A DNA stretch of 9,471 nucleotides, taken from Haemophilus parainfluenzae. GTDB lineage: Bacteria; Pseudomonadota; Gammaproteobacteria; Enterobacterales; Pasteurellaceae. Position 1 is the stretch's first letter. Every line of letters begins with the position of its first letter. Position numbers and translations under genes: made by a program. This document shows positions 1 to 4,496 of this stretch, piece by piece. The stretch is taken from the NCBI GenBank assembly GCA_018381425.1, contig JAGZRY010000046.1, forward strand, positions 1 through 9,471. Reading direction: 5' to 3'. The notes beneath the pieces are model-generated. The model did no database searches. It worked only from the letters and a program-made list of their open reading frames with translations, and was not told the origin of the DNA.

Positions 1-99
1 CAGAGTGTTTTTACTCTCGGACTTATCATTCAATCACTGAATTACAGGCTGAAATTGAAGAATATTTAGTGTATTACAACCAAAAACGCATTAAACTTG
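1..99 (+). pseudogene. IS3-family transposase (OrfB), interrupted: 5' fragment
   Basis: Reading from position 3 gives ECFYSRTYHSITELQ and then YYNQKRIKL, the last part of the rve integrase domain of an IS3-family OrfB transposase. The catalytic DDE residues lie upstream of the window. The frame is broken at 99/100, where it runs into a short false tail (VYPIT, stop at 114-116) encoded by the inserted element. Removing 100-4415 joins codon ..CTT-G to CT-TTC and restores IKLAFKGLSPVQYRAQYLS followed by TAA, the normal C-terminus of this family. The gene is therefore split by an insertion rather than worn down by point mutations. The upstream half of the IS is outside the window. Confidence 0.88.
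95..99 (+). repeat. Target-site duplication, left copy (ACTTG)
   Basis: ACTTG lies immediately left of the TG that opens the element and matches 4411-4415. Counting it once restores the transposase reading frame. Confidence 0.85.
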
Positions 100-126
100 T
101 GTATCCAATCACTTAAAATGAGAAAC
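100..126 (+). other. Left end, outer transposase-binding site (L1-like)
   Basis: TGTATCCAATCACTTAAAAT followed by GAGAAAC. This resembles the Mu left end in its TGTAT start, its TCACTT block and its G(A)GAAA end. The inner 21 bases (106-126) align with the sites at 276-296, 4362-4382 and 4384-4404; an approximate shared pattern is AAYCRCT-AAA-TGAGAAAC. Confidence 0.75.
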
Positions 127-189
127 AAAGAAATAAATAGGGATTTGGTTGAAATAAACGGGAATAAGTTGGCAGAAACTAGATAAAAC

Positions 190-219
190 GGGGCTTGGCA
201 GAGTGTCAGCCCCTTTTTT
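190..219 (+). terminator. Intrinsic terminator inside the left end
   Basis: GGGGCT (190-195) pairs with AGCCCC (208-213), with partial pairing inside the loop, followed by six T. It would stop transcription entering the element from the interrupted IS. A weaker T-run on the other strand could also end the leftward repressor remnant. Confidence 0.6.
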
Positions 220-275
220 ATTGGAAGAAAAACAGAAATAATGAAATGGGAAAAATTTTCCAAAACTCCCCAATT

Positions 276-296
276 TAACCGCTAAAAGTGAGAAAC
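276..296 (+). other. Left end, inner transposase-binding site (L2/L3-like)
   Basis: TAACCGCTAAAAGTGAGAAA then C is identical to the right inner site (reverse complement of 4362-4382) over 20 of 21 bases. The wide gap between outer and inner left sites, against abutting sites at the right end, mirrors the asymmetric Mu layout (L1 far from L2/L3, R1 next to R2). Confidence 0.72.
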
Positions 297-345
297 GTAA
301 AATGCGGTTTAAATTGGCTTTAAATCATATTTTTGCCTAAGTGAA

Positions 346-531
346 CTAACTGACCGATAATTCGGCTTCATCTTTTGAAAATAACGCGGGTGGATATTCT
401 TCTTTATTATCCGAAATTAGCTCCGCGCCGTCCCAACGAGTTTTCACGCGTTTCACCCACACGCTAGAACCGTTTTGCACTAAATAGATTTTATTGCCTT
501 TAATTTCCTTTCTTCTTAAATCCACCAACAT
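346..531 (-). pseudogene. Truncated S24/LexA-type phage repressor (C-terminal fragment)
   Basis: The 61 codons resemble the end of the S24 peptidase domain of phage repressors: MLVDLRRKEIKGNKIYLV, then WVKRVKTRWDGAELISDN, then EEYPPALF. Family members show a VKR motif carrying the catalytic lysine, followed by a SDNxxYPP block; both are visible here. The DNA-binding N-terminus and the catalytic-serine region are missing. Just upstream in frame, the codons read D-G-D-stop before the first ATG, consistent with the usual DGD-(L)-xLVD run broken by a nonsense codon, and another stop precedes that. A GGTGA lies 5 bases before the ATG, so a small protein could still be made. Position (left end) and leftward direction match the Mu c repressor. 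It is probably non-functional as a repressor; a retained role for a short fragment cannot be excluded. Recognition is from motif memory. Confidence 0.62.
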
Positions 532-550
532 CTAATCACCGTCTTAAAAG

Positions 551-580
551 ACTACACAGTAAATAACTATTCTGTGTAGT
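551..580. repeat. Inverted repeat, operator-like
   Basis: ACTACACAG (551-559) and CTGTGTAGT (572-580) form a perfect 9-bp inverted repeat with a 12-nt spacer. A third degenerate copy, CTATGTAGT, follows at 584-592. It lies just upstream of the repressor remnant, where an operator would be expected. A hairpin is an alternative reading. Confidence 0.5.
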
Positions 581-689
581 TTTCTATGTAGTTTAATAAA
601 TACACAACCAATTGAATTTATTATAAAAAATCTCTTTTCTTTCTGTGTTGTGAAGATGATAGATTGATAGCTGCATTGAAGAGAGATTT

Positions 690-730
690 GTTCGTTACAA
701 GCATATCTTGTAACGAACTTTGTTCTTTTT
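690..730 (+). terminator. Strong 12-bp hairpin with T-rich tail (terminator or operator)
   Basis: GTTCGTTACAAG (690-701) pairs perfectly with CTTGTAACGAAC (707-718) around a 5-nt loop, followed by TTTGTTCTTTTT. The tail suits intrinsic termination on the plus strand, but no gene precedes it, so an operator or structured-RNA role is equally possible. Weaker flanking arms AAATCTCT (628-635) and AGAGATTT (682-689) also pair. Confidence 0.5.
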
Positions 731-780
731 ATTATGTATTTGATTTATATAAGTTTCTATTTTTTGTAAAGAACTGAAAG

Positions 781-806
781 GAATTCAAAAAAATTTTTTT
801 GAATTC
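781..806. repeat. 26-bp perfect palindrome with EcoRI-like ends
   Basis: GAATTC, seven A, seven T, GAATTC: perfectly self-complementary over 26 bp. GAATTCA recurs at 801, 812 and 889 (TGAATTCATGAATT). The long A/T centre would be bent or prone to extrude. Confidence 0.7.
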
Positions 807-913
807 ATTATGAATTCAAAGATGAGTTTCTTTAAATCTTTATGTTTCAATTAGTTATATCGCGTAATGGTTGTTTGTGAATTCATGAATTTTCATTTTG
901 CATGACTTAAGGA

Positions 914-1009
914 GTTTCTGAAAAGGTTGTTTTAAGAAACCGTAGTTTCTCAAAAAAATCACACTTAATACATTGATTTCATTGGGTTTAAGGTTTTCTT
1001 TTCAGAAAC
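914..1009. repeat. Cluster of GTTTCT/AGAAAC half-sites
   Basis: GTTTCTGAAAA (914-924) is the exact inverted copy of TTTTCAGAAAC (999-1009). Between them, AGAAAC-CGTA-GTTTCT (935-950) forms a compact dyad. The array ends 23 bp before the predicted -35 at 1033, as expected for binding sites of a regulator of that promoter. Confidence 0.5.
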
Positions 1010-1032
1010 CGATGCAATAGAGCATAAATTAC

Positions 1033-1060
1033 TTGACAGATAGCGATAGATCTATAACAT
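1033..1060 (+). promoter_or_regulatory. Predicted sigma-70 promoter of the C4-icd operon
   Basis: A perfect -35 TTGACA (1033-1038), a 16-bp spacer, and TAACAT (1055-1060) as a -10. It sits about 30 bp before the first C4 target copy, matching the position of the constitutive leader promoter in P1/P4-type immunity operons. A 14-bp-spaced TATAAC (1053-1058) is a less likely -10. Confidence 0.6.
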
Positions 1061-1090
1061 AGGCAACGTTATCTCAAAAAAAGATAACCG

Positions 1091-1120
1091 AGCCTCGAAA
1101 CTCGAACCATTTATCACTGG
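1091..1120 (+). promoter_or_regulatory. C4 target copy 1 (a1/b1, like P4 seqA)
   Basis: AGCCTCGAAACT (1091-1102) followed by ATCACTGG (1113-1120). CTCGAAACT is complementary, with one bulge, to AGTTTTCGAG (1248-1257), and ATCACTGG is exactly complementary to CCAGTGAT (1237-1244). The same two blocks recur at 1281-1325. Two target copies flanking an antisense RNA is the arrangement known for P1/P7 C4 and for P4 seqA-seqB-seqC. Confidence 0.7.
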
Positions 1121-1126
1121 CGCATA

Positions 1127-1149
1127 ACACGCCTATTGCGTGTTTTTTT
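1127..1149 (+). terminator. Leader terminator ahead of the C4 RNA
   Basis: ACACGC (1127-1132), loop CTATT, GCGTGT (1138-1143), running into seven T (1143-1149). The outer bases GCATAA and TTATGC can extend the stem. The same ACACGC/GCGTGT pair recurs inside the C4 RNA (1161-1166 and 1201-1206), so alternative pairing could switch this terminator. Confidence 0.6.
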
Positions 1150-1268
1150 ATGCGTAGCGCACACGCACCCCAAGAACGCCTAGAGCGTCCATCTATGGTA
1201 GCGTGTAGCGGGAAAGGTTCCGCCCTTTGCTGTTTTCCAGTGATGACAGTTTTCGAGCCCGTTACACG
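1150..1268 (+). ncRNA. c4: C4-type antisense RNA (P1/P7 C4, P4 CI-like)
   Basis: A G/C-richer island in AT-rich DNA with visible structure. CGC-ACACGC (1158-1166) pairs with GCGTGT-A-GCG (1201-1210) with one bulge. CGCCTAGAGCG and the GCGG..CCGC hairpin (1208-1223) lie further in. CGTGTAGCGGG (1202-1212) can alternatively pair with CCCGTTACACG (1258-1268). It carries the antisense blocks CCAGTGAT (1237-1244) and AGTTTTCGAG (1248-1257), complementary in the right order to target copies on both sides. In P1/P7, C4 RNA processed from the same transcript binds its targets and blocks icd-ant expression; P4 CI RNA acts by early termination. The open frame across this stretch (1150-1335) is sometimes annotated as an Ash-like protein, but its conservation is better explained by RNA. 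Exact RNA ends are estimates. Confidence 0.75.
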
Positions 1269-1280
1269 TTACCGCCAACA

Positions 1281-1327
1281 AGCCTCGAAACTTCAAGCGG
1301 TAACTTCCAATCAATTTTTCACTGGAG
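1281..1327 (+). promoter_or_regulatory. C4 target copy 2 (a2/b2, like P4 seqC), overlapping the icd ribosome binding site
   Basis: AGCCTCGAAACT (1281-1292) repeats 1091-1102 exactly, and TTTTTCACTGG (1315-1325) repeats the second block. The final TCACTGGAG contains the GGAG (1324-1327) that lies 8 nt before the icd-like ATG at 1336. Pairing with C4 CCAGTGA would therefore cover the ribosome binding site directly. Confidence 0.7.
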
Positions 1328-1335
1328 TTACGCAA

Positions 1336-1530
1336 ATGTATCAATTCATTTTTGCCGGCATACGCCGAACCGACCTTACAAACCGTATTCAAAAAATACG
1401 CATTACCGCCGACAACGAGCTCATCGCCCGCAAAGCGTTCGCTAAAGAGTTTATTTTAATTCTTGCTGGCAAAATCAACCTTAAAAATACTGAGAAAAGC
1501 AACCGCACTTTAAGGGGGATTTATGCGTAA
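1336..1530 (+). CDS. Icd-like host cell division inhibitor family protein
   Basis: A 64-residue basic protein starting MYQFIFAGIRRTDLTNRI, with the block ARKAFAKEFILILAGKINL. It resembles the small Icd-like proteins of P1- and P4-type elements, whose shared pattern is a short beta-rich start, then a helix (EHEARRxL) and F-I-L-x-x-A-G/A-R/K. P1 Icd blocks cell division. The ATG at 1336 is chosen because GGAG lies 8 nt upstream and because upstream codons in this frame (from 1150) fall in the C4 RNA. The stop overlaps the start of the next gene by 8 bp. Expression should be repressed by C4 pairing over the ribosome binding site. The last codons include an uptake core sequence (1502-1510). Family assignment rests on context plus motif resemblance. 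Confidence 0.7.
   Translation: MYQFIFAGIRRTDLTNRIQKIRITADNELIARKAFAKEFILILAGKINLKNTEKSNRTLRGIYA
1502..1510 (-). repeat. DNA uptake sequence core (Hin type), in the mobile element
   Basis: ACCGCACTT, the complement of AAGTGCGGT, the core recognised by Haemophilus/Aggregatibacter-type competence machinery. It lies inside the icd-like gene. Confidence 0.8.
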
Positions 1531-1837
1531 TATTATTCAGACCGCACTACGCGAGCATTTGCACCAACACGCCAGTGATAAAGAAAAAATGCTGGAATAC
1601 AATGAACAATTTGACCTGGCTGAAAAAGGTGTTTCTGAGTCCCTAAGAATGTACGCAGATCTTGTTTTTAACTATGGTGTCGAATTGGACTCATTGCAAG
1701 AAGATATTAATGGCTCAATGTTGATTGGTGTTGGCTCAGTATTCAGATATCTTTGCTCTACCTTAGATTTTGCACAATATGGCAGGGAACAAACCGAGAT
1801 TAATTTAAATGTTTTAGATAAAAAATATTGTGAATGA
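1523..1837 (+). CDS. Hypothetical 104-aa protein in the position of a phage antirepressor
   Basis: I do not recognise the family. The protein is mostly acidic and probably helical: a charged N-terminal half (EHLHQHASDKEKMLEYNEQF) is followed by ESLRMYADLVFNYGVELDSL and a glycine/hydrophobic stretch (SMLIGVGSVFRYL) that is too short and polar for a clear membrane segment. The start at 1523 has a strong AAGGGGG 5-6 bases upstream and overlaps the icd-like stop, so translation is probably coupled and under C4 control. In P1 and P7 the gene after c4-icd is the antirepressor ant, and P4 carries an antirepressor that derepresses its helper. A role against a helper repressor is therefore a testable inference, not a sequence-based call. 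A terminator follows at 1884. Confidence 0.72.
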   Translation: MRNIIQTALREHLHQHASDKEKMLEYNEQFDLAEKGVSESLRMYADLVFNYGVELDSLQEDINGSMLIGVGSVFRYLCSTLDFAQYGREQTEINLNVLDKKYCE

Positions 1838-1863
1838 AATAATTTGTTAATATTTTTTATCTT

Positions 1864-1908
1864 ATGCCTTTATAGGCATTCACAACGCCCTCATACAGGG
1901 CGTTTTTT
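1864..1908 (+). terminator. Intrinsic terminator ending the icd operon
   Basis: AACGCCCT (1884-1891), loop CATAC, AGGGCGTT (1897-1904) and a run of six T. A smaller hairpin, ATGCCT-TTAT-AGGCAT (1864-1879), precedes it. The AACGCCCT/AGGGCGTT stem is the same as that of the terminator after the capsid gene (4315-4339). Confidence 0.85.
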
Positions 1909-2196
1909 ATACATGCAAACAGTAAAATTAAAATAACGCTATAAATCTTCACTATAGCATTTAAACCTAAAAGTAATGGGATTTACTACCTCAAAAAATT
2001 TAAATCGAATTTAAGCGATTTGAACTGCATTTAAAGCATTTTGAATTGGCATTTACCATGCTATTAAGAGTTTTTCCAAAAAATAGAAAATTTTTCTTTT
2101 TTGTGCCTTCTCCTTTTTATTTATCTTTAAACTCCTTTAATAAGATTCTTGTTTCAATTTCCTTAAACTTCTTTCACAACAACCAAAGGGGGGAAA
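1909..2196 (+). promoter_or_regulatory. AT-rich upstream region of the activator-capsid operon with phased ATTT tracts
   Basis: No credible gene here. ATTT starts at 1998, 2009, 2018, 2029, 2038 and 2051, spaced 11, 9, 11, 9 and 13 bp, close to one helical turn; GCATTT recurs three times. GCTATA (1938-1943 region) and TATAGC form a loose inverted repeat nearby. I see no good sigma-70 promoter (the best is TTGAAT 2041-2046 with TATTAA at 15 bp), which fits a promoter depending on an activator such as the Mor-family protein encoded downstream. AAAGGGGGG (2185-2193) is the ribosome binding site of that gene, with an unusually short 3-bp spacing. Confidence 0.4.
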
Positions 2197-2505
2197 ATGA
2201 AAATACCAAGAAAAGAACGCGTTTGGAATGATTTTATCGAAGGGCTAGACGGTGCAATTCTTACCGCACTTTCTGAAAAATTGGATAATGAACGATTAAG
2301 AGTGCGAATTATTGAGCTTATGCAGGAAGCTTGCGGAGGGTTGTTAGTTTATATTCCTAAAGGCTTTGCAAACAAGGTTAACGCAAGAAATTCCCTGATT
2401 AGAAAGGAATTTACAGGCGATAACCACTATGAACTTTCAAGAAAATACGGCGTAAGCGTGCAACACATTTACACAATTTTAGGGCGAGAAGATGAATCAA
2501 ATTGA
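2197..2505 (+). CDS. Mor/C-family phage transcription activator
   Basis: A 102-residue protein matching the Mu Mor family. A helical dimerisation region is followed by the hallmark GGLLVYIPKG (Mor: GGQVYIPRG), then by a C-terminal helix-turn-helix, LIRKEFTGDNHYELSRKYGV with SVQHIYTILGR (Mor: FKGRNVSELTTRYGV..VYKAIRR). In Mu, Mor activates the middle promoter and its relative C activates the late promoters. Here the gene directly heads a capsid operon: its last codons overlap the protease gene by 14 bp, so the two are translationally coupled, which is not the Mu layout, where Mor lies several genes upstream. It is slightly shorter than Mu Mor (about 129 aa), mainly at the N-terminus. It probably activates its own operon or senses a helper's late programme. 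An uptake core sequence (2263-2271) lies inside the gene. Confidence 0.9.
   Translation: MKIPRKERVWNDFIEGLDGAILTALSEKLDNERLRVRIIELMQEACGGLLVYIPKGFANKVNARNSLIRKEFTGDNHYELSRKYGVSVQHIYTILGREDESN
2263..2271 (-). repeat. DNA uptake sequence core (Hin type), in the mobile element
   Basis: ACCGCACTT followed by TCTGAAAA (an AT-rich flank), inside the Mor-family gene. Confidence 0.8.
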
Positions 2506-3364
2506 AATATTTCGAGCAGGAAAGCGATTAGATGCAAGCGGACAGATGATAGAAATCAAGCCTAACGACTTGTTGCAAGCGGTTAATGCTTATGACCCTA
2601 ATTTACACGAAGCTCCAGCGGTAATTGGGCACCCGCAACACAATGCCCCCGCTTACGCGTGGGTAAAACGTTTAACCACCACCGGCGACATTTTAAAAGC
2701 TGAATTAGCGCAGGTTGACCCCAATTTTGCGGAAATGGTGGATGCTGGACGATTTAAGAAAGTTTCCGCGTCTTTTTACCTTGCTGACAGTCCAAACAAT
2801 CCGAAGCCAGGGTTCTTATATTTGCGCCACGTTGGCTTTTTAGGCGCAATGCCACCGGCAGTTAAAGGTTTACGAAATCCTGAATTTTCAGACAATGAAA
2901 GTGGAGTAGTTAATTTCTCCATGATAGTAGAAGAAAAAGATGAATTAAACGCACTACGCGCGGAGAATGAACAATTAAAAGCACAGGAAAGAGAGCGAAA
3001 AAATCTAGAATTTGCTGAAGGGCTTGTTTCAGTTGGCAGACTTGCGCCAGTTGCAAAAGCAAAAGCCATAGAAATTCTAAATTATGCTGAAGAATGCGAC
3101 CGTTCAGGCATTATTAATTTTAATGAAGGCGAAAGCATGGTACAGAAAGTGCGTGATTTTTTAGCTCTTCAACCGAAAGTAGTGAGTTTTGGGGAGTTTG
3201 CCACAAAAGAACGCGCCGTAAACGGTCTTGCTTCCGATGTGGTGGAGTATGCCGAAAATACCCCTTTAGCCGTTATAGAGTTAGACCAACAAATTCGCCA
3301 GTGCATGAAACAACATAGCGTAGATTACAGCACGGCATTCAACCTTATTCATAAATCAAAATAG
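2492..3364 (+). CDS. Mu gpI-like capsid maturation protease/scaffold protein
   Basis: 290 residues. The N-terminal half carries features of Mu-like gpI proteases: EIFRAGKRLDASGQMIEI, then HEAPAVIGHPQHNAPAYAWV with its histidines, then RFKKVSASFYL with the candidate nucleophile serine and LYLRHVGFLGAMPPAVKGL. From about residue 144 a charged coiled coil (EEKDELNALRAENEQLKAQE) begins the scaffold part, which ends in a helical C-terminus. In Mu the protease-scaffold directs procapsid assembly and is then cleaved; a shorter scaffold comes from an internal start. An in-frame ATG exists at 2921 with only a distant GGAG, so an internal product is possible but weakly supported. Mu gpI is about 361 aa, so this version is shorter. 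The start overlaps the activator gene and the stop overlaps the capsid gene's AGGAG. Confidence 0.88.
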   Translation: MNQIEIFRAGKRLDASGQMIEIKPNDLLQAVNAYDPNLHEAPAVIGHPQHNAPAYAWVKRLTTTGDILKAELAQVDPNFAEMVDAGRFKKVSASFYLADSPNNPKPGFLYLRHVGFLGAMPPAVKGLRNPEFSDNESGVVNFSMIVEEKDELNALRAENEQLKAQERERKNLEFAEGLVSVGRLAPVAKAKAIEILNYAEECDRSGIINFNEGESMVQKVRDFLALQPKVVSFGEFATKERAVNGLASDVVEYAENTPLAVIELDQQIRQCMKQHSVDYSTAFNLIHKSK

Positions 3365-3374
3365 GAGCTTAAAA

Positions 3375-4304
3375 ATGACTTTAGCAACACAACGAATTCA
3401 AGACCCAATTTTAACTGAACTTGCACAAGGCTATCATAATAACGAATTGGTAGCAGAAGTGTTAATGCCCGCAGTTGAAATTGAAAAGGAAGCAGGACGC
3501 ATTCCACAGTTTGGAAGTTTAGCATTCCGAACTCGCTCAACTGTGCGTGAATTACACGGCGATTCTAATCGTTTAACTCCTGAAGATGTAGGTTCTTTGC
3601 ATGTTGAATTACAAGAGCATGATATTGAATATCCTATTGATTACCGAGAAGACAACGACGCCAGTTATCCATTGAAAAAATATGCGCTTTCAGTCGTTCA
3701 AGATGTTATTGCTTTGGGGCGTGAAGTAGAGGTTGCAAAAATCGCTCAAAATCCTGAAAATTACTTGAATTCAAATAAAATTGCGCTATCTGGAGATAGT
3801 CGATTTACAAATACGAAAACAAATCCGTTAAAAATTATTGATGAAGGTTTAAACGCAGTCTCCGCAGTTATAGGCAGAATGCCGAATGTTTGTGTAATTG
3901 CCTCTGATGTATGGGCTATCTTAAAAGAAAATGAAGTGCTATTAGAGCGAATTAAATACACGCGTACCGGTATTTTAACCCCTGCCGTTTTTGCGGAATT
4001 GATTGGGGTTGATGTGGTAAAAATTGGCGCAGCCTCACAAGAAAAAAGCGGTAAATTAGAAAAAATTTGGTCTAATTGCATTGTGTTAGCTTACACGCCT
4101 CAAAAAAATGCAAATCAAAAAGAGCAAGAAAGAAGTATTTTTGAGCCGGCTTACGGCTACACAGTACGCCGTAAAGGTGGTTTATTTGTGGATACTTACC
4201 AAGAAAAAGGAGGGAAGGTAGAAGTTATTCGTTGCACGGATATTCACAGCCCTCATTTAGTGGGCAAGCCAGCAGGATACTTAATTACAAACTGCATCAA
4301 ATAG
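3375..4304 (+). CDS. Phage major capsid protein (Mu-like siphophage/myophage type)
   Basis: 309 residues, full length for this capsid family. The start MTLATQRIQDPILTELAQGY and the blocks ELVAEVLMPAVEIEKEAGRI, PQFGSLAFR, EHDIEYPIDYRE, then EPAYGYTVRRKGG..VDTYQEKGGKVEVIR and LVGKPAGYLI at the C-terminus match major capsid proteins found after gpI-like proteases in Mu-like prophages; the fold is expected to be HK97-like. It may be a family distinct from Mu gpT, and I cannot settle which. An AGGAG lies 6-7 bases before the ATG and overlaps the protease stop, so the pair is co-translated. No decoration, portal or head-tail joining gene follows; a terminator comes directly after. The gene appears intact, with no frameshift or early stop. 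Confidence 0.88.
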   Translation: MTLATQRIQDPILTELAQGYHNNELVAEVLMPAVEIEKEAGRIPQFGSLAFRTRSTVRELHGDSNRLTPEDVGSLHVELQEHDIEYPIDYREDNDASYPLKKYALSVVQDVIALGREVEVAKIAQNPENYLNSNKIALSGDSRFTNTKTNPLKIIDEGLNAVSAVIGRMPNVCVIASDVWAILKENEVLLERIKYTRTGILTPAVFAELIGVDVVKIGAASQEKSGKLEKIWSNCIVLAYTPQKNANQKEQERSIFEPAYGYTVRRKGGLFVDTYQEKGGKVEVIRCTDIHSPHLVGKPAGYLITNCIK

Positions 4305-4314
4305 GCATTAAATC

Positions 4315-4339
4315 AAAACGCCCTTTTTAGGGCGTTTTT
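4315..4339 (+). terminator. Intrinsic terminator after the capsid gene
   Basis: AAAACGCCCT (4315-4324), loop TTTT, AGGGCGTTTT (4329-4338), T-tail. It lies 10 bp after the capsid stop and 23 bp before the right-end sites, closing the operon inside the element. The A-rich 5' arm makes it potentially bidirectional. Confidence 0.88.
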
Positions 4340-4361
4340 GTTCCTTAATTTGCACTAAAAA

Positions 4362-4382
4362 ATTTCTCACTTTTAGCGGTTA
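4362..4382 (-). other. Right end, inner transposase-binding site (R2-like)
   Basis: On the minus strand this reads TAACCGCTAAAAGTGAGAAA then T, 20 of 21 bases identical to 276-296 and in inverted orientation to it. It abuts the outer right site with one base between them. Confidence 0.72.
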
Positions 4383-4383
4383 C

Positions 4384-4410
4384 GTTTCCCAAAATTTGTG
4401 AACGGTTACA
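4384..4410 (-). other. Right end, outer transposase-binding site (R1-like)
   Basis: On the minus strand this reads TGTAACCGTTCACAAATTTT then GGGAAAC. It is the same length as the left outer site and shares TGTA, CC, TCAC and GAAAC at the same positions. Confidence 0.75.
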
Positions 4411-4415
4411 ACTTG
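4411..4415 (+). repeat. Target-site duplication, right copy (ACTTG)
   Basis: ACTTG lies immediately right of the CA that closes the element and is identical to 95-99. A 5-bp duplication is characteristic of Mu-family transposition. Confidence 0.85.
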
Positions 4416-4465
4416 CTTTCAAAGGATTGAGCCCAGTGCAATACCGAGCTCAATATTTAAGTTAA
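4416..4465 (+). pseudogene. IS3-family transposase (OrfB), interrupted: 3' fragment
   Basis: This is the remainder of the transposase after the inserted element. In the restored frame it reads (A)FKGLSPVQYRAQYLS and stops at TAA 4463-4465. The KGLSPVQYR block is the typical end of IS3/IS150-type OrfB proteins. It lies seven bases before the IS terminal inverted repeat, which is the spacing expected at the right end of such elements. It has no start of its own and is not expected to be expressed as a protein. Confidence 0.88.
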
Positions 4466-4471
4466 CTAACC

Positions 4472-4496
4472 TGTCCAACTTTTGGGGGGCAGATCA
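4472..4496 (+). repeat. Right terminal inverted repeat of the IS3-family element
   Basis: TGTCCAACTTTTGGGG followed by GGCAGATCA matches the outer end seen on many IS3-group elements (TGTCCAACTTTTGGGG then a variant of TGCAGTTCA). It directly follows the transposase stop codon and marks the junction with chromosomal DNA. The left inverted repeat and the short target duplication cannot be checked because the left end of the IS is outside the window. Confidence 0.8.

Follow-up and report, generated by a model that had tools for sequence, protein, structure and literature searches.

A probable Mu-ended, transposase-less relative of capsid-encoding phage satellites in Haemophilus parainfluenzae

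The stretch of Haemophilus parainfluenzae DNA analysed here, 9,471 nucleotides of contig JAGZRY010000046.1 and referred to below as the window, carries a satellite-like unit of 4,311 bp at positions 100-4410. Judged from sequence comparison, this unit is probably a mobile, transposase-less, Mu-ended relative of the capsid-encoding phage-inducible chromosomal island (PICI) satellites, and it would likely use the transposase of a Mu-like helper phage to insert and to replicate. Borrowing of a helper's transposase is likely because no transposase was found in the unit itself. Our best reading is of a PICI that traded its integrase and primase for this borrowed enzyme. As the late cassette descends from PICIs with an integrase and a primase, the kind of satellite is partly known; the parent group, PICIs with Mu-like helpers, has a history in print, and mobilisation through Mu-type ends is likely the new part. 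The satellite proposal of a first-pass annotation, made from the letters of the window alone, is supported overall. That annotation knew of no described Mu-type satellite of this build. That statement holds in so far as no Mu-ended satellite was found in the open-licence literature, which misses most subscription papers, and has to be narrowed with regard to the known parent group.

The unit has Mu-type ends and interrupts an insertion sequence

The first bases of the unit are TGTATCC and the last are GGTTACA, giving Mu-type TG...CA termini, and a 5-bp duplication, ACTTG, flanks it on the left (95-99) and on the right (4411-4415), with no strand assigned to either copy. The target is a copy of an insertion sequence (IS), recognised as such by eye from the sequence of the flanks. 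Its left part (1-99) is 97% identical to G001:C2:310610-310708 and its right part (4416-4496) is 98% identical to G001:C2:310529-310615, and the two are continuous there. Genome G001, the nearest genome compared (20 contigs) and not the window's own, thus provides the empty site: window positions 1-99 and 4410-4496 are joined, ACTTG is present once, and the IS is uninterrupted. Termini, duplication and empty site together bear out the 4.3-kb unit with Mu-type ends and a 5-bp duplication that the first-pass annotation had outlined. However, ACTTG alone is no proof that the small form moved, because the duplication would also survive the trimming in place of a full prophage.

Both ends resemble those of Mu-like phages. 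The left end (100-655, plus strand) continues into a broken repressor and is 83% identical over 573 bp to locus L010, where the matching sequence is a Mu-like left end in H. quentini, and 81% identical over 226 bp to a prophage in genome G075. We infer that it is a transposase-binding end. The right end (4363-4410, plus strand) matches that of the same G075 prophage at 91% identity over 46 bp; its first 26 bases have one match in the window, with none expected, and a perfect 20-bp inverted repeat joins 276-295 to 4363-4382. The repressor, which the first-pass annotation had described as truncated, is a 61-aa C-terminal fragment of the S24 type (346-531, minus strand; PF00717, E 1.8e-07; 84% to L010:2273-2557) and is a left-over of the Mu left end.

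The G075 prophage, found in the genus of G001, is 34,084 bp long and combines matching ends and a GGTGC duplication with a 675-aa MuA reading frame that is open and with large-terminase, portal, head, sheath and tape-measure cluster genes (cluster names taken from L012). Both end matches are also present, about 34 kb apart, in G080 and G135. Phages whose transposase should, by prediction, recognise ends of the window type exist, and the G075 prophage is a candidate for the helper type.

The late cassette groups with satellites

The right part of the unit encodes a Mor/C-family transcription activator (2197-2505; PF08765, E 1.1e-17), a 290-aa head maturation protease fused to a short scaffold (2492-3364; phrog_976, E 1.3e-93) and a major capsid protein (3375-4304; phrog_1005, E 9e-94; PDB 3bjq, E 8.9e-28), all on the plus strand and all with open frames. 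To their left, also on the plus strand, lie a C4 antisense RNA (1191-1279; RF01695, 62.9 bits against a cut-off of 45), a frame for an Ash-like regulator (1336-1530; 64 aa from the chosen start; phrog_1743, E 1.4e-10), whose homologue in L011 matches Pfam Phage_ASH, and a gene for a 104-aa protein without an assigned family (1523-1837; 45% to L011:6321-6641). A terminator-like hairpin (4315-4340, plus strand; -16.5 kcal/mol, fold z -4.78) starts 10 bp past the capsid stop. No transposase, integrase, primase, terminase, portal or tail protein was found among the six open reading frames (ORFs) of the unit scanned against Pfam and PHROGs, a set that left out short overlapping ORFs of at most 126 aa. 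The family matches agree with what had been read by eye: an intact activator, protease/scaffold and capsid, a C4 module, a terminator at that distance from the capsid gene, and no transposase, terminase, portal or tail. The Ash-like frame and the 104-aa gene are additions to that inventory.

We surveyed 140 Pasteurellaceae genomes, which do not include the window's own, and found a capsid match in 40. Full-length matches at 64% identity or more numbered 12; all were mapped, and not one of the 12 is part of a complete Mu-like prophage. Adding the window and the viral contig L014 to these 12 (eight newly fetched loci plus L009, L010, L011 and L013) gives 14 mapped loci. The large-terminase, portal and tail clusters of full Mu-like phages are in none of the 14; the prophage that surrounds L014 is of a different kind. 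The tree built from 95 capsids has a satellite clade of 71 rows (support 100/100), most of them database rows without context, that holds all 14 loci of known context, every one a satellite, and all seven full phages fall outside it. Within the clade, a 19-row sub-clade (100/99) unites the window capsid with all type II and type III loci, as defined below, and contains no type I locus. Unmapped genome loci entered this tree only if their match was on the plus strand, several phage capsids were left out, and so was a partial capsid of G016 (66% over residues 99-308, L065). The comparison with Mu-like prophage capsids that had been suggested from the window alone places the window capsid among those of satellites.

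Searches for further copies returned L014 at 78% and others at 60% or below in viral contigs (L014 and others at 31% or below in a profile search), 19 of 19 matches below 60% in plasmid records (at most 34% for the 10 listed), and 56 of 56 matches below 60% in phage records (best 55%). Source databases often name capsid proteins of this kind 'inorganic pyrophosphatase', an evident misannotation.

Eight of the mapped loci constitute type I. All eight carry a primase and a C4 RNA and seven an integrase; the contig of L060 begins inside the element. The integrase and primase were named by family matches in L011, L057 and L061, and other type I genes were assigned by similarity to these. L011, from Necropsobacter, is an integrase/primase island of this type, and it is close to the window: the late cassette shares 80.5% nucleotide identity with it over 2,174 bp, and the C4/Ash region 84% over 486 bp. 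Primase is found in neither of the two type III loci and in none of the four type II loci, and these six lack integrase and transposase as well.

These comparisons bear on the simplest alternative, that the unit simply arose by deletion from a Mu-like phage which owned these late genes, with no satellite past. The Mu-type ends would suit such an origin, and Mor/C, protease and capsid occur in Mu-like phages too. However, the capsid belongs to a clade in which every row of known context is a satellite, the C4/Ash region is shared with an integrase/primase island, and no full-length prophage with the cassette, an outcome that the first-pass annotation had named as damaging to its proposal, was found among the mapped capsid matches of the 140 family genomes. 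The capsid tree and the C4/Ash module led us to set this derivation aside as very improbable.

Identity to L011 is not even along the cassette, being 86% for Mor, 89% for the protease and 75% for the capsid, while the window capsid is 85% identical to those of the type II loci L009 and L010. By sequence the unit is a mosaic. Synonymous divergence from L011 is 0.6 in the protease and climbs to 2.1 in the capsid, and this jump suggests a recombination point near the border between the two genes. The ratios of nonsynonymous to synonymous divergence (dN/dS) against L011 are 0.19 for Mor, 0.10 for the protease and 0.09 for the capsid; with values in this range, their products have stayed functional during most of the period since the split from L011.

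Related units without integrase or primase recur in the family

Type III comprises the window and L013, a 5,034-bp unit in Actinobacillus genomosp. 2 with TG...CA termini and its own 5-bp duplication, AAGGG. The order of C4/Ash, small gene, Mor, protease and capsid is identical in the two, and their small genes belong to one loose cluster (c20), linked via L011. Compared to the window, L013 has an extra 99-aa frame and no repressor fragment; its C4 RNA is present. The arrangement is therefore not confined to a single occurrence, which would have spoken against the first-pass proposal. The search it had suggested, for the same gene set bounded by the same ends at other target sites, succeeded for the gene set and only in part for the ends, as the right end of L013 is a moderate match. 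A search of the family for the left end of L013 gave best outside matches of 79% over 67 bp in G009, which are not a complete prophage end pair, and this lead was dropped.

Type II comprises L009, L010, L014 and L054, whose ends read TAAA...TTTA. Three of the four encode a small-terminase-like protein, and all four have sRNA-Xcc1 (RF02221) in place of C4 (L009:7377-7461, L010:8073-8157 and L014:8182-8266, minus; L054:10563-10647, plus, in the fetched orientation), which suggests that this RNA is an alternative immunity RNA of type II. The right end of a Mu-like prophage in G100 is similar to that of type II (81% over 42 bp). L009 lies inside hsdM of P. bettyae with a 6-bp duplication, ACATCT, and L054 is flanked by a 6-bp duplication, TACATC. 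L010 is a 5.6-kb satellite inside MuB of a Mu-like prophage fragment in H. quentini (L010:2053-11159). The right flank of this locus, adhesin-like by eye, is not of Mu-like type; the host prophage has thus been rearranged. The target of L014 (L014:4050-11547) is an F-like head gene in a prophage that does not belong to the mapped Mu-like set; the two parts of that gene share a 77-aa stretch at 95% identity, a flanking duplication. Among the type II proteins, one of 323 aa (L010:6115-7086, minus) has a weak Csa3/CARF-like match and is possible cargo.

The alignment of L009 with L010 runs at 83-93% through five blocks covering 3,955 of 5,624 bp, with the left terminus identical and the right terminus agreeing within 4 nt, and the two occupy unrelated targets in two genera. 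Because termini are shared at unrelated sites in two genera, units of this kind have moved. This pair is the strongest evidence for the movement of such small units.

The short protease-scaffold is a candidate size switch

The eight fused satellite proteases that were aligned measure 287-308 aa, compared to 319-378 aa in the eight full phages mapped. In six of these eight phages, protease and scaffold are separated by an additional linker, which is missing in the two shortest, L062 (332 aa) and L155 in G071 (319 aa). The linker-less proteins (L155:8660-9619, reversed; L062:11224-12222) come from full Mu-like phages, and scaffold length varies among phages too. Among the best 120 of 4,813 homologues, most of them rows without context, a compact form (247-324 aa) accounts for 49, and a form with a 60-79-aa insert at one point (354-380 aa) for 62; the rule left nine unassigned, eight of which measure 367-377 aa. 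The linker motif is in none of the 49 compact homologues. In some type I satellites and in L054, protease and scaffold are two genes.

The closest published parallel is PmCI172, a P. multocida PICI described as having a Mu-like helper, heads of 38-39 nm and a capsid homologue (PMC6092414). The helper idea of the first-pass annotation fits this island, from published work that it did not name (PMC6092414). PmCI172 changes heads from T=7 size to T=4 size, by a mechanism that a passage of a 2019 review leaves open (PMC6893505), and the same passage reports that no Sid or CpmAB homologue was found (PMC6893505). On sequence grounds, the short protease-scaffold is a candidate for the switch to small heads.

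The unit might instead be a resident anti-phage device, its capsid and short scaffold retained so that the heads of incoming Mu-like phages are poisoned, and with spread no longer needed. In PmCI172 lysates, helper DNA is reported to enter the small particles, yielding defective phage (PMC6092414), and the head genes of the window are under purifying selection. Conserved transposition ends would, however, serve no purpose in such a device, related units at different sites and in different genera point to spread, and the two small window proteins scanned had no defence-family match. We consider this function improbable.

Movement of the small form and remnant in place

The reading of the unit as a mobile satellite has to be weighed against a history without movement. 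A full Mu-like prophage with an inserted PICI may have lost its middle, in which case the ends and the duplication would be those of the old prophage and the small form would never have moved. Such a history would account for the repressor broken at the left junction, L010 offers an instance of a satellite inside a Mu-like prophage, and the exact window element is known from a single site, no second copy having been found at another. Moreover, Mu-like elements with both ends and few kb between them exist in four family genomes (L098:2300-7102, L099:2291-6850 and, reversed, L100:3559-14043 and L101:2967-5563). L099 (4,560 bp) and L100 (10,485 bp) have exact 5-bp duplications, and none was found at L098 and L101; L098 retains MuA and part of MuB, and L099 a shortened MuA. 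Against this history stand the occurrence of the core gene set without integrase or primase twice, with different Mu-type ends (window and L013), the movement of the related type II units L009 and L010, genes that are open and under constraint, and the terminator directly after the capsid gene. On balance, we regard the remnant as unlikely, though it is a serious competitor.

The mobile, helper-dependent reading is weakened not only by the single known site and by the short both-ended elements but also by the following. The right end of L013 scores 15 against that of the window, compared to a maximum of 14 in 2,000 shuffles, and no full prophage with the ends of L013 was identified. The empty site of L013 is inexact: it was found in one of eight other genomes of the genus (G004), where the flanks lie 117 bp apart and the 23 and 227 bp adjoining the element do not align. 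No target duplication was found at L010 and L014. MuA matches over the cut-off occur in six of 11 satellite genomes and in 27 of 129 others (one-sided p 0.021), which gives weak support for a helper, and the remaining five satellite genomes have none. G001, the nearest kin, has neither a MuA match nor a capsid of this kind, and G006, the host of L013 (listed as a complete genome, completeness 81), has no MuA match. Within the unit, the duplex energies of the C4 RNA with its candidate targets, described below, are no better than chance (84 of 500 and 46 of 500 shuffles as good). Lastly, linker loss was rejected as a satellite-only mark on account of the full phages L062 and L155, which leaves the shorter total length of the protein as the difference.

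Proposed mechanism

As long as the helper is silent, the C4 RNA would hold the operon off; the C4 RNA family has a known silencing role. Upon induction of a Mu-like helper, its MuA, with MuB, would work on the satellite ends and amplify the unit by replicative transposition. Because helper MuA would supply both insertion and replication, the integrase and primase of a PICI would be dispensable, and the comparison of gene contents agrees with this. The Mor/C activator would turn on the late operon, perhaps together with the late promoters of the helper. Satellite capsid and short protease-scaffold would then build small heads, to be fitted with the portal, terminase, neck and tail of the helper, and packaging would run from the Mu-type left end onward into flanking host DNA. 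The helper would lose DNA to the small heads, in line with what is reported for PmCI172 (PMC6092414). The unit likely originated from a PICI that inserted into a Mu-like prophage, of which all but the ends was then deleted. The satellite inside MuB at L010 indicates that satellites do land in Mu-like prophages.

A broader proposal is more tentative, and we hold it at somewhat less than even confidence: that this is a new mode of satellite life, in which integrase and replicase are discarded and a helper transposase does the work of both. Its kit would be limited to the Mu-type ends, the immunity RNA, the late activator, and a capsid with a short protease-scaffold; it would have arisen more than once in Pasteurellaceae, with ends from different Mu-like groups, and the shortened scaffold would be the T=7 to T=4 switch of PmCI172. 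If true, a satellite relying on a helper transposase would amount to phage piracy with a very small kit that includes its own head. Host DNA at the edges of the unit would be expected in the package, as in Mu, with a bearing on gene transfer among relatives of Haemophilus. The short satellite protease-scaffold, which is brought along with the capsid, is also a testable candidate for the head-size question of PmCI172, with the caveat that the linker is missing in two full phages as well.

Comparison with known systems

In laboratory mini-Mu, the Mu ends act in cis and the transposase is supplied in trans. The same layout is predicted for the window unit, whose ends have high identity to those of a complete prophage; recognition by MuA in trans is a prediction only. 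The unit differs from mini-Mu in being natural and in carrying an immunity RNA, an activator, a protease/scaffold and a capsid of its own. P4, the satellite of P2, has C4/CI-type RNA immunity, an Ash-like gene, the late activator Delta, an integrase, the alpha primase, Sid and Psu. The unit shares with it the C4/CI-type RNA, for which silencing is predicted, the Ash-like gene and a late activator in the role of Delta, and small heads are expected in both. It differs in having no integrase, alpha primase, Sid or Psu (neither these last three families nor Delta matched in the six ORFs scanned) and in that the shell capsid is its own. Capsid-forming PICIs (cf-PICIs) encode their own capsid along with portal, terminase and connectors. 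The window unit likewise has its own capsid protein; of that set it brings only the capsid with its protease/scaffold, and the portal and terminase part is absent. Compared to a Mu-like phage, the unit has the Mu-type ends and 5-bp duplication, and MuA, MuB and the full late gene set are absent from the six ORFs scanned.

PICIs are described as integrating by their own integrase and replicating by their own replicon. Pasteurellaceae PICIs such as PmCI172 and the window unit are alike in the capsid homologue and the Mu-like helper, the latter predicted for the window (PMC6092414), and reference PICIs are given for Aggregatibacter, Necropsobacter and Pasteurella (PMC10111431). The type I relatives, L011 and others, fit Pasteurellaceae PICIs by integrase, primase and capsid, PmCI172 being compared by its description only (PMC6092414). 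In place of the integrase, primase and att sites of such islands (PMC6092414), the window unit has Mu-type ends and a 5-bp duplication. Of the Gram-negative PICI features looked for in the window, the homologous late cassette was found; integrase, att sites and primase were not, nor was an AlpA- or MerR-type regulator among the six ORFs scanned. Helper-embedded PICIs, in which the satellite sits inside a prophage gene, offer a parallel to L010 and L014 (PMC10111431). They belong, by that account, to an integrase clade, whereas L010 and L014 have Mu-like ends instead (PMC10111431). Miniature inverted-repeat transposable elements (MITEs) are also moved by the transposase of another element, as predicted for the window unit (PMC11389934), but are about 300 nt long and non-coding, unlike it (PMC11389934).

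Further features of the unit and its surroundings

Two two-box sequences flank the C4 RNA on the plus strand, one upstream (1094-1120) and one downstream (1284-1325), and are candidates for pairing with the C4 loop. None of 200 shuffles shows the exact two-box pattern; it is only suggestive because the pattern was derived from the window sequence itself. A looser version of the pattern is found on both sides of C4 in L013 and L058, and the other C4-bearing type I loci have no such pair. C4 with flanking targets as a quantified duplex was rejected, the energies being unsupportive. Directly upstream of C4, several satellites have a match to isrK (RF01394; L011:5867-5946, L013:7409-7490, L057:8042-8121). 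The 104-aa protein had no family match in Pfam, PHROGs or defence-family scans. It has only two matching clusters, yet its own cluster comprises 326 contigs, so the gene is common in sequenced samples.

To the right of the unit and the IS, chromosomal genes follow, mdh among them, and this part of the window matches G001 at 96% over 4,977 bp. G001 is of the same genus as G079, whose capsid is identical to a protein that a source assigns to Haemophilus parainfluenzae, and this agrees with a host at or near that species. Directly right of the IS lies a small RNA, AaHKsRNA20 (RF02898; 4521-4599, minus strand; 80.8 bits).

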